Notes under the pieces: generated by a model | What the model was told of the DNA's origin: nothing | The model's database searches: none | Seen by the model: only the letters and a program-made list of their open reading frames with translations | Origin: Phycisphaeraceae bacterium | Lineage (GTDB): Bacteria; Planctomycetota; Phycisphaerae; Phycisphaerales; UBA1924 | Assembly (NCBI GenBank): GCA_019454185.1 | Contig: CP075368.1 | Coordinates: forward strand, 992,001 to 1,056,000 | DNA length: 64,000 nucleotides | Direction: 5' to 3' | Shown: one piece after another, positions 17,037-49,479 of the stretch | Layout: each line of letters begins with the position of its first letter | Position numbering within the stretch: position 1 is the first letter of the stretch | Position numbers and translations under genes: made by a program

Positions 17037-19091
17037 TTATCGCTTCTGCCGACGTTGATTGACAACAACGTCCATGCCAATCGCATCGTCTCGAGTTGGC
17101 AGCCACAGCAGAGTCTGGATAGAACGTGGATCTGTGTACGTGCTGCCGAAGTCGTCCTGCCCGTCGGCTCCGACGCTGTAGAGCAGATATGCACGTCCTG
17201 CCCCATCCAGTGTGGGATCGATCCGGAGGTACTTCAAAGGTCTGCCGTCGAATGGATCGAGCGGAAGCCGTTCAATGTACATCGGTGTGAGCTCGTCGAG
17301 CGCGTCCGGGTACGTGCCATTGCCATCCCGGAACAGTTCAAGAGCGAGCATCACCCTGAGGCCGTCAAACAACAGGTCTCGATGCAATCGATCAAGGAGC
17401 AGTCGGTCCATGCGATAGAGATTGACAACAGGTACCAGGTGCGCCGGGTGGGCAACCGCAGACGCGATCCCCGGGGCATGAACTGGGTCCGCAGCGAACG
17501 CCGCCGCAGTCGCGCCGCGGATCTCCTCGATCTCACGGAGGTTCGAGGCAAGGGTCCCGACACGCCCGCTCGCTACGCCGCCTCTCTGCGCGAACCGCTC
17601 TTTGATATCACGAATGCTCGATGAGAATGGACCGAGTCTGACCGCAGAAGGATCCGCGAAAAGGCGGGCAGTCTGGTCCTCTGTCACCTTCAGCAAGATC
17701 TCATAGTTCCATTCGTATCTGACCTCGGATTGCTGCCGCTCGATCGCATCCCGCAGCGCGACGGCAAGCAAGCCGTCAACAAAGCGATCATTGAAAGCGT
17801 CTATCAGCAGATCGAACACCATCAGATCGATGGCTGGCCGCCTGAACCAGGTCGAGAACCCCGGGTGCAACGAGTAGATGCGGGCGATCGCAAGCATGGC
17901 CTCGATGGCCGCTGCAAACCGATCAGTATCACCAGACTGGCGAGCTAGGTGAGCGTCAGCCGAAAAGACATACACCACGTGCCAAAGAAAGTGGGGCTCT
18001 GCGGGCCACGGATGATCAGCGACCGAGCCGTCTGTGTCCTCGATCGTGTAAGCCACCCGTCGACGATCGCACAACTGGCGTGCTACATCGCGGAAATCAG
18101 TGCGATGCAGCTCTTCAATACACCTCAACGCCAGATCGCGCTCAAGCAGAGCCACATCGTCGATAGACGAGGAGTCTGCAATCTGCTCGTCGCTCATGCC
18201 GACATACCAGTACCCCGGCATGAGTGCGCGATCACGCTTGAAGTCTGGTTCCTCGCCGACGCGCTCCCCGATCTCTCGCACAAGAGCCGCGAGTGCTCTC
18301 CCCGATTCAAGAGCATCCGGCTCGTCCGCCGACATGCCCGCTGGCTGGGCTTCAAGAACAAGTCTCTGAATCGCTTCCTGTGTCAGAAAGTGGCGAGTCG
18401 CCTCGCGTGCTTGCACCCGAAGGAATATCTCATAGACGATGCAGGCGACGAGCATGATCACGAGACCACCCGCCGCGATCCGAAGCAGTGACCTGGCGAG
18501 ACTCTTGCACCAACCCGGCATCCTGATCAGCAGAGGAGGCCGCACCCCTGAGGCGATCTCAGGTCGAAACCGCGTATGGCCCGCATCATCGATCTGAAGC
18601 TCGCTGAGAGACGGATCGACCGTGTTGACACTCCCGCACTCCGGACAGGTCACGAGATTCTCTGCGGACACGCCGAGCCCGACGAGGGAATACCCGCACT
18701 TGGCGCACAACCCCCGAGAACGCAGGATCCAGCGGATCCGGTCCATGATCAGGAAGTCGCGGGCCAGGTATCCCAGAATCGGGCCTACGCCTACAAGAAC
18801 AACAAGCAAGGCCACCATCGCAATGGCCTCGGCGATGCTCTGCCGCGGACCAGGGCCGAAGCCCGGCAATCGACCCCCGTTCTTGCCGATCGACAAACCG
18901 AGAAGCATGACCACGAAGGCGAAGCAGGCAACGTTGATCAACCCGATGATCAAGAAAAGGACGAGGGATCGAACCAATCGATCTCGCCGGGTGCTCCCCC
19001 TCGCCGCCCTCACAAACCTCGCGCACTGCTCATCCGTGTAGCCGTCGAGCTCGGGAAACGCCCGATGGAGATGCTTGATCGGGACGCGCAT
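17037..19091 (-). CDS. Zinc-ribbon multi-pass membrane protein, tandem paralogue 1
   Basis: 684 residues from ATG 19091 (AGGAA 8 nt upstream). N-terminal block FPELDGYTDEQCARFVRAA, two membrane helices (about 40-65 and 85-110), a zinc ribbon CAKCGYSLVGL ... CPECGS at about 131-157, a third membrane helix near 210, then a ~450-residue helical domain ending in YPDALDELTPMYIERLPLDP and a GADGQDDFG-like tail. That tail resembles the C-terminal part of planctomycete pseudopilin-like proteins. Its start lies just inside the end of paralogue 2, so they are cotranscribed. Function unknown. Confidence 0.82.
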   Translation of the reverse strand: MRVPIKHLHRAFPELDGYTDEQCARFVRAARGSTRRDRLVRSLVLFLIIGLINVACFAFVVMLLGLSIGKNGGRLPGFGPGPRQSIAEAIAMVALLVVLVGVGPILGYLARDFLIMDRIRWILRSRGLCAKCGYSLVGLGVSAENLVTCPECGSVNTVDPSLSELQIDDAGHTRFRPEIASGVRPPLLIRMPGWCKSLARSLLRIAAGGLVIMLVACIVYEIFLRVQAREATRHFLTQEAIQRLVLEAQPAGMSADEPDALESGRALAALVREIGERVGEEPDFKRDRALMPGYWYVGMSDEQIADSSSIDDVALLERDLALRCIEELHRTDFRDVARQLCDRRRVAYTIEDTDGSVADHPWPAEPHFLWHVVYVFSADAHLARQSGDTDRFAAAIEAMLAIARIYSLHPGFSTWFRRPAIDLMVFDLLIDAFNDRFVDGLLAVALRDAIERQQSEVRYEWNYEILLKVTEDQTARLFADPSAVRLGPFSSSIRDIKERFAQRGGVASGRVGTLASNLREIEEIRGATAAAFAADPVHAPGIASAVAHPAHLVPVVNLYRMDRLLLDRLHRDLLFDGLRVMLALELFRDGNGTYPDALDELTPMYIERLPLDPFDGRPLKYLRIDPTLDGAGRAYLLYSVGADGQDDFGSTYTDPRSIQTLLWLPTRDDAIGMDVVVNQRRQKR
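18994..19066. repeat. 73-nt perfect repeat, copy 1
   Basis: Lies inside paralogue 1 and encodes its FPELDGYTDEQCARFVRAARGS segment. Base-for-base identical to 21029-21101 in paralogue 2, including synonymous positions. Confidence 0.9.
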
Positions 19092-19092
19092 G

Positions 19093-21150
19093 TCAGTGGT
19101 TCCTGGCAGCAGAGTTGATGATCCAGTCGAGCCCGACACAGTCCCGCTTCTTTGCCGCTCCCATCACGATGTTCTGTGATTTGGCTCGACGTGCAGGAGG
19201 CGGCCTTCCCCCGTTATCGACTTGGTCAGAGCCGATCGAGTAAAGCACATACCCGGCGGGTGCGCAGTGATCTGAATCACCGGGTCGTCGATAGACATAC
19301 GGAACCCCCGACCAGGGATCGAGCGGAAGGGCTTCCATGTACGCCGGAACGATGCGCTCAAGCGAATCCGGATACTCACCTTCAGCCAGACGGAAGCGTT
19401 CGAGTGCGATCATGATGTCGAGCCCGTCACGATCGGCTTGCAGCACAGCAGATTGATCGAGCGTCTCAGTCGGATCCGTGTTGATGCAATACCAGGCCGG
19501 GATAAGTGATGTGGACGCCGAATCATGCGGACCCCTCTCGCGGAGCGGCGTACTCGCGACCTCGCGAAAGCGTTCCTCCTGCTCCCTCAGTATCTTCCGG
19601 TTCTCGTAGTAAGTGCCGAGCCGTGATGGTTGTCTCATGGTGTCGCCGATAAACAGCGACATGCGGAGCTGACGCACCGATCGCGACCAACGCCCGAAGC
19701 GAGCATGGTGCGGCTCATTGAAGAAGTGGCAGATCAGATTGTGCGAGGTCAACGCCTCGCTCCTGATCCAGAACTCATGCGGCACCGACGACCGCTGCCG
19801 CTCAAGAATGTCTGAGATGGCGTCGAGCCACTCGGCATCGGGACTCGAAGCGAGCGCAAGCCGTATCTGCCCATGTGTCTCCATCTCGATGTGGTACGAG
19901 ACGAGGTGCGAGATCAGGTTCGGCTCAAGCCGAAGGACACGGGCAAGTGCGAGCGAGCCCTCCATCGCGGAGGAGAACGCGGCCAGGTCTCGATCCTCCG
20001 CCGCCAGACGCATTCGAGAGAGACAAGCCATGGCGAGCTGCCGACTGTCACCAAGATGTTTGAGCGGGATCAAGAACAGCGGCTGCCCGGGTGGTATGTC
20101 GTAACCAGGAACGTACCGCCGCGTCGACGCCAGAATCGCAAGTGTCTCAGGGACCCCAAGCTCCCTCTGCTTCTCGAGAAGCATCCGGGCGACCGCTTCC
20201 CCTTCCTGTATCTCTCTGAGACGTACCGCGTGCAGTTCGCCAAGATCTCCGACACGCTCCGGCGCATAGATCATCTGATAATCCGGGTACATGCCGAAAG
20301 AAGGCGAACCCCGAGCAAGCCACACCGCGTGGTCGGCCTCGGTTCTCAGCAGAGACAACTTCATCAACACGTCAAAGGCGTTCGGATCGCTCGGACGAGT
20401 GCCCTCGGGCTGGTACGCTGTCGCGAGAGCTTGCAGGTCGAGAACGCTCGGCTGCTCTCGCCGCGCGATGCCGGCTTGCCAACGGATGAAGAGCTCATAT
20501 GAAACCGAAAGCACCAGTGCAAGGATCGCGAGAGCAAGAGAACCGAAACCGAGCACGCGCCGGCGACGGCGTGTCCAGAAGATACGGGCCTTGTGCCGAG
20601 ACTCAGCCGGCTTGAAGCTCGGGCGCCCGGCCTCATCGGTCACGAGCTCGCCGAGGGCCGGGTCGACCTGGGTGGTCGTGCCGCACTCGGGGCAGATGAC
20701 CTGAAGTTCTTCACCGACGAAAAGGCCGACGAGCGTGTAGCCGCACGAGATGCACGTGCCGCGTGTGCGAAGAATGAAACGGACACGACGGATGACAAAC
20801 AGGTCCCGTGTAAGATAGCCGAGTATGGGGCCGAGGGTGACGCCCGCGATGGCCAGGACGATGTTCAGCAGCAGGCCATACCAGGTGACCAGTTGGTGGC
20901 CGATGTTCAGCGAGCGGTGGGGATCGAGCCAAGTACTCTGGACATACCAGAATCCGACGAGTCCAGCACTGATACCGATCAGCGTGACTAGCGCGATGAT
21001 CGCACCCGCAATGACCCTGCGCCGGACACTCCCCCTCGCCGCCCTCACAAACCTCGCGCACTGCTCATCCGTGTAGCCGTCGAGCTCGGGAAACGCCCGA
21101 TACACGCGGCGTACAGGCAGACGTGGAAGCGAGACTCGCAGCAGCGACAT
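19093..21150 (-). CDS. Zinc-ribbon multi-pass membrane protein, tandem paralogue 2
   Basis: 685 residues from ATG 21150 (an upstream in-frame start adds six residues). Same plan as the downstream paralogue: FPELDGYTDEQCARFVRAA, two helices, zinc ribbon CISCGYTLVGL ... CPECGT, another helix near 205, and a long helical domain ending with EGEYPDSLERIVPAYMEALP, LDPWSG and YVLYSIGSDQVDNGG. Overall identity to the paralogue looks low except for the first ~24 conserved residues, whose DNA is identical. Upstream gene of the pair. Confidence 0.82.
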   Translation of the reverse strand: MSLLRVSLPRLPVRRVYRAFPELDGYTDEQCARFVRAARGSVRRRVIAGAIIALVTLIGISAGLVGFWYVQSTWLDPHRSLNIGHQLVTWYGLLLNIVLAIAGVTLGPILGYLTRDLFVIRRVRFILRTRGTCISCGYTLVGLFVGEELQVICPECGTTTQVDPALGELVTDEAGRPSFKPAESRHKARIFWTRRRRRVLGFGSLALAILALVLSVSYELFIRWQAGIARREQPSVLDLQALATAYQPEGTRPSDPNAFDVLMKLSLLRTEADHAVWLARGSPSFGMYPDYQMIYAPERVGDLGELHAVRLREIQEGEAVARMLLEKQRELGVPETLAILASTRRYVPGYDIPPGQPLFLIPLKHLGDSRQLAMACLSRMRLAAEDRDLAAFSSAMEGSLALARVLRLEPNLISHLVSYHIEMETHGQIRLALASSPDAEWLDAISDILERQRSSVPHEFWIRSEALTSHNLICHFFNEPHHARFGRWSRSVRQLRMSLFIGDTMRQPSRLGTYYENRKILREQEERFREVASTPLRERGPHDSASTSLIPAWYCINTDPTETLDQSAVLQADRDGLDIMIALERFRLAEGEYPDSLERIVPAYMEALPLDPWSGVPYVYRRPGDSDHCAPAGYVLYSIGSDQVDNGGRPPPARRAKSQNIVMGAAKKRDCVGLDWIINSAARNH
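21029..21101. repeat. 73-nt perfect repeat, copy 2
   Basis: Lies inside paralogue 2, in the same reading frame and orientation as copy 1 at 18994-19066. Flanking sequences diverge at once on both sides. Confidence 0.9.
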
Positions 21151-47013: not shown

Positions 47014-47838
47014 ATGAGCGAGCAACCGCCAACCAACGACGAGCAACCCGAGCCGCCGACGCCTCTGTCCACCAACGCGGAGTCCGTCATCCAACAGGAC
47101 CTCGCGCGAATCCGCAAACGCAAGCGTGCCTCAAGCATCGCTGGCCGCGTGCTGCTCGTGTTGTTTCTTGATCTCTGTATGGTGAGGATGATGGACTACG
47201 GCGTGTCGAATCGGACGCTGCTCTCTCAGTTTCCGCCGCGGGGCACGTATCCGAGTTACACGCCGCACTGCACCGTCTTCATCTACGAAACGCCGGAGGG
47301 AAAGCGCGTCATGTGGGAGGATGCGGCAGGATACACCGACGACCGCCGCACACTGGTCGAGGATCCGCCGCCGCACTGGACGCCCGTTGCCTGGGTCGCC
47401 TGGAGTCCGGTCAGATTTCAGGGGTATGGCTACGGGCTCTTGACGCCCTGGAGTCGCGAGACGGATTACAGATTGGGCGCAACGACCGCGGCAAAGGACA
47501 AGGACCTTCCCGTCGAACAGTGGCGCGGGATCGTCTGCGACTGGCTTGTGAGCGGCGCATCGGGACATGGCGAGCGTGCCGCACGCGTCGGGCGAGCGCT
47601 CCGCAAGGGCGATCACGTCGAGCGATCGTTCTCGCTTCTCTGTTTCCTCCATGACATCGCCTTTGTGTGCGCCGCAGTGTGGAGTGTGTGGACTCTGATC
47701 ACCGGTGCGGTCCTCGGAACGTCACGAGCCGCGATGCGGATCCATCAGGGCCACTGCCCCGTCTGCTCCTACAACCTCCTCTCCGACTTCTCCCGCGGCT
47801 GCCCCGAATGCGGCTGGGGAAGGACCCCGCATGTCTGA
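47014..47838 (+). CDS. Zinc-ribbon membrane protein, operon member 1
   Basis: 274 residues from ATG 47014, only 26 bp after IS copy A. Topology: N-terminal Glu/Pro-rich tail, TM1 about 42-60, a ~130-residue external domain with WVAWSPVRFQGYGYGLLTP and WRGIVCDWLVS, TM2 about 209-232, and a C-terminal zinc ribbon CPVCSYNLLSDFSRGCPECG. First of three coupled paralogues. Function unknown; the ribbon is cytoplasmic if the N-terminus is. Confidence 0.78.
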   Translation: MSEQPPTNDEQPEPPTPLSTNAESVIQQDLARIRKRKRASSIAGRVLLVLFLDLCMVRMMDYGVSNRTLLSQFPPRGTYPSYTPHCTVFIYETPEGKRVMWEDAAGYTDDRRTLVEDPPPHWTPVAWVAWSPVRFQGYGYGLLTPWSRETDYRLGATTAAKDKDLPVEQWRGIVCDWLVSGASGHGERAARVGRALRKGDHVERSFSLLCFLHDIAFVCAAVWSVWTLITGAVLGTSRAAMRIHQGHCPVCSYNLLSDFSRGCPECGWGRTPHV

Positions 47839-48679
47839 TACAACCTCGCAAGGCGGCGAAACTCCGGCCCTCAACGCCGAAGTCGAGCGGATCCTCCGTG
47901 CCGGGCAGCGGCTGGGCATCGCGATGGTGTTCATCGCGATCGTTGTCGTTGATCTGGGCATCGTGGCGAACGCCGACTTTGGCACCCGTAACCAAACAGT
48001 CTTCCGTTGCCTTCTCGATATGCTCTCAGGCCGGGGAGGTCCCTCTTTCCGCTTGGTTGATGCTCGCCTCTATGCCACGCCAGACGGTGTCCGCATCGTC
48101 TCCGGTGGTGGAACGGATATGGAGCGTGTCGCGGCTGAGACTGCGGGCGTTGACCCAGACAACTGGAACCAGGCCCAAGCCGCGATAGCGAACTTCCCGC
48201 CTGCGGAATGGCAACCAATCGCTGTTGCCGGCATGCTCTCGTCGCGGCTGTACACGAACGGATATGGATTCCTGACCCCCGCTCATCAGATCGTTGATTA
48301 CAGTTGCTTCGTTCAGAGCACCACGATGCAGCCGTTGACGGGCGAGCAGACCGCCGCGTACCGAGAAATGTTCTGCGACTGGCTCGCGACAGAATCTGAT
48401 TGGGCATCACCACAGACCGCGAAGTACGCCGCAGAGTTGAAGAAGGGCGATCGCACGGTCACGCGAATCGTCTGGCCGTTCCTCGTGCATGATGCCGCTG
48501 CGCTGGTGGTACTCGCGTGGTCGGGATGGACGATCCTCCGCACACCGCTCCCAACACTTGCCCGTGCCCGCCGCATCAACCGCGGCCATTGCCCGCGTTG
48601 CTCCTACGACCTCCTCGCCGACTTCTCCCGCGGCTGCCCCGAATGCGCATGGGGAAAAGAGCGGGGAGGCACATCATGA
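47831..48679 (+). CDS. Zinc-ribbon membrane protein, operon member 2
   Basis: 282 residues, starting 8 nt inside member 1 with a GGAAGGA site. Same plan: TM1 about 28-48, external domain containing DARLYATPDGVRIVSGGGTD, PPAEWQPIAVAG and YREMFCDWLATES, TM2 about 218-238, and zinc ribbon CPRCSYDLLADFSRGCPECA. More like member 3 than member 1 in the ribbon. Confidence 0.8.
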   Translation: MSDTTSQGGETPALNAEVERILRAGQRLGIAMVFIAIVVVDLGIVANADFGTRNQTVFRCLLDMLSGRGGPSFRLVDARLYATPDGVRIVSGGGTDMERVAAETAGVDPDNWNQAQAAIANFPPAEWQPIAVAGMLSSRLYTNGYGFLTPAHQIVDYSCFVQSTTMQPLTGEQTAAYREMFCDWLATESDWASPQTAKYAAELKKGDRTVTRIVWPFLVHDAAALVVLAWSGWTILRTPLPTLARARRINRGHCPRCSYDLLADFSRGCPECAWGKERGGTS

Positions 48680-49479
48680 GCGAAAGGACGCACGCCGAAG
48701 ATCTCGCTCGCTTGCCGTTCGACCAAGCGGCGAATGTCCACAGCGATCTGCAGCAGATCACCCGACACTGGAAGCGGCTTCGACAGGCCATGCTGCTGCT
48801 CGTTCTGCTGCTGATCGAGGTGGCGATCGTGGCATCGATTGATTTTGGCCGCTGGCAGGAGTCGTTCGTGCGTGTCTTGGTGACCGGGGGCGAGCGGCGT
48901 CGGGCGGGTATGTTCCAGATGCACTTCTTCGCGACACCCGAGGGAATGCGGGCGGTACCGCGCGATGACCCGTCCATTGACCGACTCGTGACGGAGTACG
49001 GCGAATTCCCGCCGCCGGGATGGGATGAACGCGTACGAGCCAAGTTTATGGAAGTGATTCTCAATCCAGACGGCGATGGTCTCTTCACACCCTTCATGCA
49101 ATTGGATACACACTGGCTCACACTCGAACCAATGCACGGGCAAGAGATCCCCGAATCTGAGGCCGCGTACATGCGCGACACCTTCTGCGAGTGGTTGGCG
49201 AACGAATCGCCCCGTGCGTCGCCGGCAGTCGCGCAGTATGCCGACAAACTGCGAATGGGGAATCGGCATGAGACGCGCATCGTGTGGGGCCTGCTGCTGC
49301 ACGACGCCATCGTGCTTGGCGGTTTCATCTGGGGCGCCTGGACGCTCGTGCGGACTCCCTGGCCACCCTTCCGACGCTGGCGCCGCGCCCGCCGCGGCCA
49401 TTGCCCACGATGCTCCTACGACCTCCTCGCCGACTTCTCCCGTGGCTGCCCCGAATGCGGCTGGGGAAAGAAGCTCTGA
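48676..49479 (+). CDS. Zinc-ribbon membrane protein, operon member 3
   Basis: 267 residues, overlapping member 2 by ATGA. TM1 about 36-56, external domain with MHFFATPEGMRAVPRDD, PPPGWDERV, YMRDTFCEWLANES, TM2 about 209-230, then an Arg-rich stretch and zinc ribbon CPRCSYDLLADFSRGCPECG at the C-terminus. The shared F-C-[DE]-W-L-A motif marks the external domain of the family. Followed by palindrome-rich DNA with no gene. Confidence 0.8.
   Translation: MSERTHAEDLARLPFDQAANVHSDLQQITRHWKRLRQAMLLLVLLLIEVAIVASIDFGRWQESFVRVLVTGGERRRAGMFQMHFFATPEGMRAVPRDDPSIDRLVTEYGEFPPPGWDERVRAKFMEVILNPDGDGLFTPFMQLDTHWLTLEPMHGQEIPESEAAYMRDTFCEWLANESPRASPAVAQYADKLRMGNRHETRIVWGLLLHDAIVLGGFIWGAWTLVRTPWPPFRRWRRARRGHCPRCSYDLLADFSRGCPECGWGKKL

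Follow-up and report, generated by a model that had tools for sequence, protein, structure and literature searches.

The window analysed here is a stretch of 64,000 nucleotides from a Phycisphaeraceae bacterium (assembly GCA_019454185.1, contig CP075368.1, positions 992,001 to 1,056,000), in which two tandem paralogues, called gene A and gene B below, lie on the minus strand in the order B then A, with one base between the stop codon of B and the start of A. Close to the 5' end of each gene, and in a common reading frame, lies a block of 73 nucleotides (nt) that is the same in both copies and is very probably the product of gene conversion. The features concerned are as follows, with G001 denoting a genome of the same genus that carries three tandem copies.

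17037 to 19091, minus strand: gene A, 684 amino acids, ATG at 19091; orthologue of G001 copy 3
18994 to 19066, minus strand: the block in gene A, the probable donor, from the second base of codon 9 to the second base of codon 33, encoding RAFPELDGYTDEQCARFVRAARG and parts of the flanking codons
18636 to 18707, minus strand: zinc-ribbon-like CxxC...CxxC segment in gene A, another conserved island, in which A and B are not identical
19093 to 21150, minus strand: gene B, 685 amino acids, ATG at 21150; orthologue of G001 copy 1
21029 to 21101, minus strand: the block in gene B, the probable recipient of the conversion tract, from the second base of codon 17 to the second base of codon 41
20683 to 20754, minus strand: zinc-ribbon-like CxxC...CxxC segment in gene B, with residues C133, C136, C153 and C156

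The two genes have a common architecture, in which a RAFPELD..DEQC motif comes first and a zinc-ribbon-like CxxC..CxxC motif further on. The N-terminal motif, in its longer form RAFPELDxxSDEQCxRFVxAA, is short and helical; no other part of the family is as conserved, and its residues R, A, F, E, D, D, E, C and F are invariant. It is followed by predicted long helices, which are probably membrane helices, then by the zinc-ribbon-like segment and another long helix, with a helical body and the C-terminal part completing the protein. It is the conserved N-terminal motif that the 73-nt block encodes, and the membrane/zinc-ribbon family to which the genes belong is uncharacterised. Gene A matched no Pfam or NCBIfam family above its cut-off, nor did gene B with the exception of a weak match of its C-terminal part to Pfam T2SSG (GspG-like), and an AlphaFold model of B, with a mean pLDDT (predicted local distance difference test score) of 81.4, had no match at E 0.001 or better among PDB structures. 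The titles and abstract openings listed by the literature searches included no report of the family, for which no search by name was made, as it has none.

Direct comparison of the blocks gives 73 identical bases out of 73, at exactly the coordinates reported in an earlier sequence-only reading of this DNA. That reading had claimed perfect identity down to third positions and flanks that diverge at once, and both observations hold. The block contains 23 complete codons and parts of two more; counting only codons for which A and B have the same amino acid, and omitting Met and Trp, the two genes use the same codon at 23/23 positions inside the block vs 55/160 outside it. In 5000 permutations, runs of same codons reached 13 at most, and none matched the observed 23. 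Raw identity between the flanks falls to 6/10 on the low-coordinate side and 2/10 on the high-coordinate side in the first 10 bases, and is 18/50 on each side over 50 bases, so that the background level is reached immediately. Over the multiple alignment as a whole, block included, A and B share 42% of aligned bases (845/1995) and about one third of their amino acids, and their second-longest identical run measures 14 nt.

The two blocks are 2035 bases apart in a genome of 3,800,083 bases in one contig, and a search of that whole genome found no further perfect copy of the 73-mer. A dispersed repeat or mobile element was rejected, as only these two perfect copies exist in the genome. A block duplicated by an error of assembly or sequencing is an explanation to which we attach almost no weight, given the single contig, the distance between the blocks, their clean and different flanks, the intact reading frames and the presence of similar patches in three other assemblies. 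The 163 genomes of the family-level group contained no unrelated genome with the same 73-nt sequence.

The three copies of G001 lie side by side (L033 3905-10058) and allow the history of the block to be compared with that of the genes around it. In a protein tree built without the block, A groups with G001 copy 3 (support 98/96) and B with G001 copy 1 (100/99.9), and a sister relationship of A and B is rejected (p-AU, from the approximately unbiased test, 1.4e-45). Since each gene pairs with its own orthologue, the duplication predates the species split, but identity of the block is confined to this genome, a discordance that indicates concerted evolution. The window block matches its counterparts at 61 of 73 bases in G001 copy 3, 52 in copy 1, 49 in copy 2 and 58 in the single gene of G002, so that the A-type orthologue of G001 differs from it at 12 positions and the B-type orthologue at 21, and the paralogues are more alike in the tract (73/73) than either is to its orthologue. 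Synonymous codons are about as free between orthologues in the block as in the rest of the gene: A and G001 copy 3 agree at 13/22 in the block and 97/239 outside, and B and G001 copy 1 at 9/20 and 129/308. A scan of A against G001 copy 3 found an excess of synonymous-site agreement at window positions 18966-19049, covering the second part of the block and the sequence just downstream (20/25 codons at alignment positions 66-149, scan p about 0.005).

This comparison bears on two further explanations. The sequence-only reading had offered gene conversion and a functional DNA or RNA element as alternatives, and had proposed to compare the blocks in relatives; since orthologous blocks differ and paralogous blocks are identical, the concerted change within genomes upholds the first alternative, while the variation among orthologous blocks tells against the second. 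A regulatory site, structured RNA or translation signal in the 5' coding region would fix the bases in both genes, but orthologous blocks of the same genus match at only the 61, 52 and 58 bases given above, their synonymous codons vary freely and the shared bases change from genome to genome. Nor did single-strand folds do better than shuffled sequences (z -0.56 and -0.68), and an Rfam search gave no match at gathering scores; the orthologue comparison, fold energy and Rfam together led us to reject a conserved nucleic-acid element. The scan excess just described, and a synonymous agreement that is slightly higher in the block than in the rest even between genera (5245/10951, or 0.479, vs 42838/105440, or 0.406, in long genes of the family), are what such an element has in its favour, and we consider it very unlikely.

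Protein-level selection combined with codon bias, acting alone on a motif as conserved as this one, might also be expected to keep the DNA alike. The sequence-only reading judged protein selection alone insufficient. Among 2107 pairs of family genes from different genera, which have the same motif, the longest identical run in the block is 31 nt and about 48% of codons are the same, as against 73 nt and 23/23 between A and B. This explanation, to which we assign a negligible probability, is refuted by the freedom of synonymous sites in the orthologues.

A different kind of exchange, unequal crossing-over that expands or contracts the array, could have moved the block in place of non-reciprocal conversion. 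The window copies are tandem and only one base apart, and copy number varies within the genus, with 2 motif matches in G000, 3 in G001 and 1 each in G002 and G003. However, the flanks of B side with G001 copy 1 (10:0 upstream, 59:9 downstream) and those of A with G001 copy 3 (9:1 upstream, 36:17 downstream); as both flanks keep the same orthologue in each gene, there is no sign of a hybrid gene. Two identical blocks are moreover not what one reciprocal exchange would leave behind, and we regard crossing-over as highly improbable.

We favour the interpretation of the block as a short gene-conversion tract between tandem paralogues, at a probability of roughly 0.9. A tandem duplication before the split from G001 would have given rise to A and B, which would then have diverged to their present level. 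Once the lineages had separated, the two copies would have taken part in homologous recombination or template-directed repair, with the N-terminal motif, the best-conserved stretch of the gene, as the anchor, where protein constraint had kept the DNA alike; at least 73 bases would have been copied, most likely from A to B, and the tract would end where the copies were too different to pair. Such a repair would have been non-reciprocal and may have depended on RecA, which is encoded in the genome, as is MutS.

The proposed direction comes from the block sites at which G001 copies 3 and 1 differ, where the window block has the base of copy 3 at 13 sites and that of copy 1 at 4 (binomial p 0.049). 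The second half of the block is 11:1 for copy 3, and its first half is 2:3. In that first half G001 copy 3 is similar to G001 copy 2, by which it has probably itself been overwritten there. Topology tests on the block weakly reject B with G001 copy 1 (p-AU 0.037) and do not reject A with G001 copy 3 (0.305). This evidence points, if modestly, to A as the likely donor and B as the likely recipient.

Several observations weigh against this account. As regards direction, the informative sites are few and the first half of the block does not favour copy 3. In a tree of the block alone, A and B group with a support of 13/0 on a branch of almost no length, the sites being too few to decide. The identity available before the event may also have been low. 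If G001 copies 1 and 3 are taken as a proxy, it was 53/73 (~73%) in the block, which is below the identity for efficient recombination, and of the four longest identical runs between these copies a single one, of 10 nt, falls inside the block; a review puts the identity required in E. coli at 23-90 bp (PMC3758752). Pairing despite such a low proxy identity could be due to the copies having once been more alike, to an earlier patch that served as a foothold, or to a short-homology repair route.

The family extends well beyond this genome. Its N-terminal motif is present in 89/163 genomes of the same family-level group and in 121/400 genomes of the order, a sample that includes the same-family genomes. 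Of the 21 named motif loci, all but one are labelled as Planctomycetota, mostly as metagenome-assembled genomes of Phycisphaeraceae, Phycisphaerales or Phycisphaerae; the exception is labelled simply as an uncultured bacterium. A scan of genome contigs with the full-length protein as query found no relative. The single copy in G002 (L034 7341-9376) appears to be split into two open reading frames (ORFs), one of 587 amino acids and a shorter one.

Comparable patches occur in other tandem arrays of the family. Copies 1 and 2 of G001 share identical runs of 50 and 35 nt in the zinc-ribbon segment, the longest shared runs of that genome, and copies 2 and 3 share a 28-nt run at the 5' end. In G069, which belongs to another genus, three tandem copies have runs of 55, 39 and 29 nt at the 5' end, and copy 3 shares its longest block run with copy 2 (33% protein identity), though its body is closer to copy 1 (54%). 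One tandem pair of G142 has a 44-nt stretch with one mismatch that begins at about the start codon. We surveyed 68 family genes, in 2278 pairs, for stretches within the 5' block that are at least 40 nt long and have no more than one mismatch. The loci were picked by eye from motif matches, 20 of them places where matches lie close together and 20 dispersed or single; further close pairs, for example in G140 and G146, were left out, three ORFs without a recognisable motif were dropped, and the motif filter lost others, of which two were restored by hand. With the qualification that the pairs share sequences and are not independent, 6/29 same-cluster pairs were positive (5/23 adjacent tandem and 1/6 other), contributed by four genomes, so that tandem copies have a near-identical 5' segment in three genomes besides this one. 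Among the controls, the counts were 0/20 for dispersed pairs of the same genome, 1/122 for same-genus pairs (the close orthologues of G009 and G066) and 0/2107 for pairs from different genera.

These controls suggest repeated events at one 5' segment in the tandem arrays of a single gene family. It is possible, though we hold this only tentatively, that the segment encoding RAFPELD..DEQC is a recurrent foothold for recombination and has been homogenised anew and independently among tandem copies in several Phycisphaeraceae lineages. An equally tentative corollary is that a short protein motif can stay identical in its DNA by supplying the sole stretch at which copies of about one-third identity are able to pair. 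Homogenisation may be favoured because tandem partners must show the same N-terminal interface. The process is not general, however, since only four genomes contribute and 7/11 adjacent pairs of long genes have block runs of 20 nt or less, even if these seven include the G142 pair, whose single mismatch the survey allows. In long genes, the fraction of same codons is 171/259 in the block and 957/2117 in the rest for adjacent tandem pairs, and 92/184 and 648/1575 for dispersed pairs; the difference between block and rest separates the two classes at p 0.064 only, which also counts against generality.

Other repeats in this genome provide some context. The window contains a second, unrelated array of three tandem genes, which have in common a zinc-ribbon-like 3' end, GHCPRCSYDLLADFSRGCPECGWGK.

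47734 to 47827, 48569 to 48662 and 49381 to 49474: zinc-ribbon-like 3' ends of the second array

Over the last 32 codons the three pairs of this array use the same codons at 18/20, 17/20 and 20/24 positions, vs 25/71, 23/56 and 33/83 elsewhere, an island of the same motif-sized kind as the 73-nt block. As a base rate, exact direct repeats of at least 32 nt were found in 6 of 20 stretches of 20 kb (400 kb of this genome), and, judging by their appearance, we take most of them to be non-coding or repeat-protein sequence. One stretch, L153 (G000:C1:3160001-3180000), has at 2995 and 4170 an exact repeat of 159 nt with divergent flanks, which involves an ORF of 505 amino acids and a shorter one. 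The longer ORF is, we presume, RHS/HINT-like, and the repeat has the look of a HINT-type tip segment that has been duplicated, similar to displaced toxin-tip cassettes, and not that of a diverged tandem pair.

Partial conversion of old paralogues is an already known process in bacteria and archaea, and long-lasting concerted evolution in prokaryotes has been the subject of a published survey (PMC6053082). What we add is a new example, whose modest novelty lies in its recurrence at a single conserved motif. The case is clean and supported by trees, and its conversion tract is very short, although the two bacterial paralogues seem far too divergent to recombine. It also serves as a warning that short perfect repeats in coding DNA are not necessarily regulatory elements, and that trees from the conserved motifs of tandem families can mislead. 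Three known systems are the closest parallels. Gene conversion in the tuf genes of Salmonella (PMC5485169) involves non-reciprocal transfer in contiguous tracts between two chromosomal copies, as is proposed here, but the tuf copies are nearly identical, whereas A and B share about 42-46% of aligned bases. The methanogen genes mtrA-1 and mtrA-2 (PMC4632066) resemble our case in being paralogues in one operon, of which one common domain, that of MtrA, is homogenised repeatedly while another part differs; there, however, conversion has affected a whole domain over very long times, and here it is confined to short patches in some arrays only. The release factor genes RF1 and RF2 (PMC4530459), which have undergone partial gene conversion, are also old and divergent bacterial paralogues in which one functionally shared segment has been overwritten and the local tree conflicts with the global one, although the segment there amounts to about one protein domain, as opposed to the tract described here, which measures 73 nt or more and involves adjacent genes of unassigned function.

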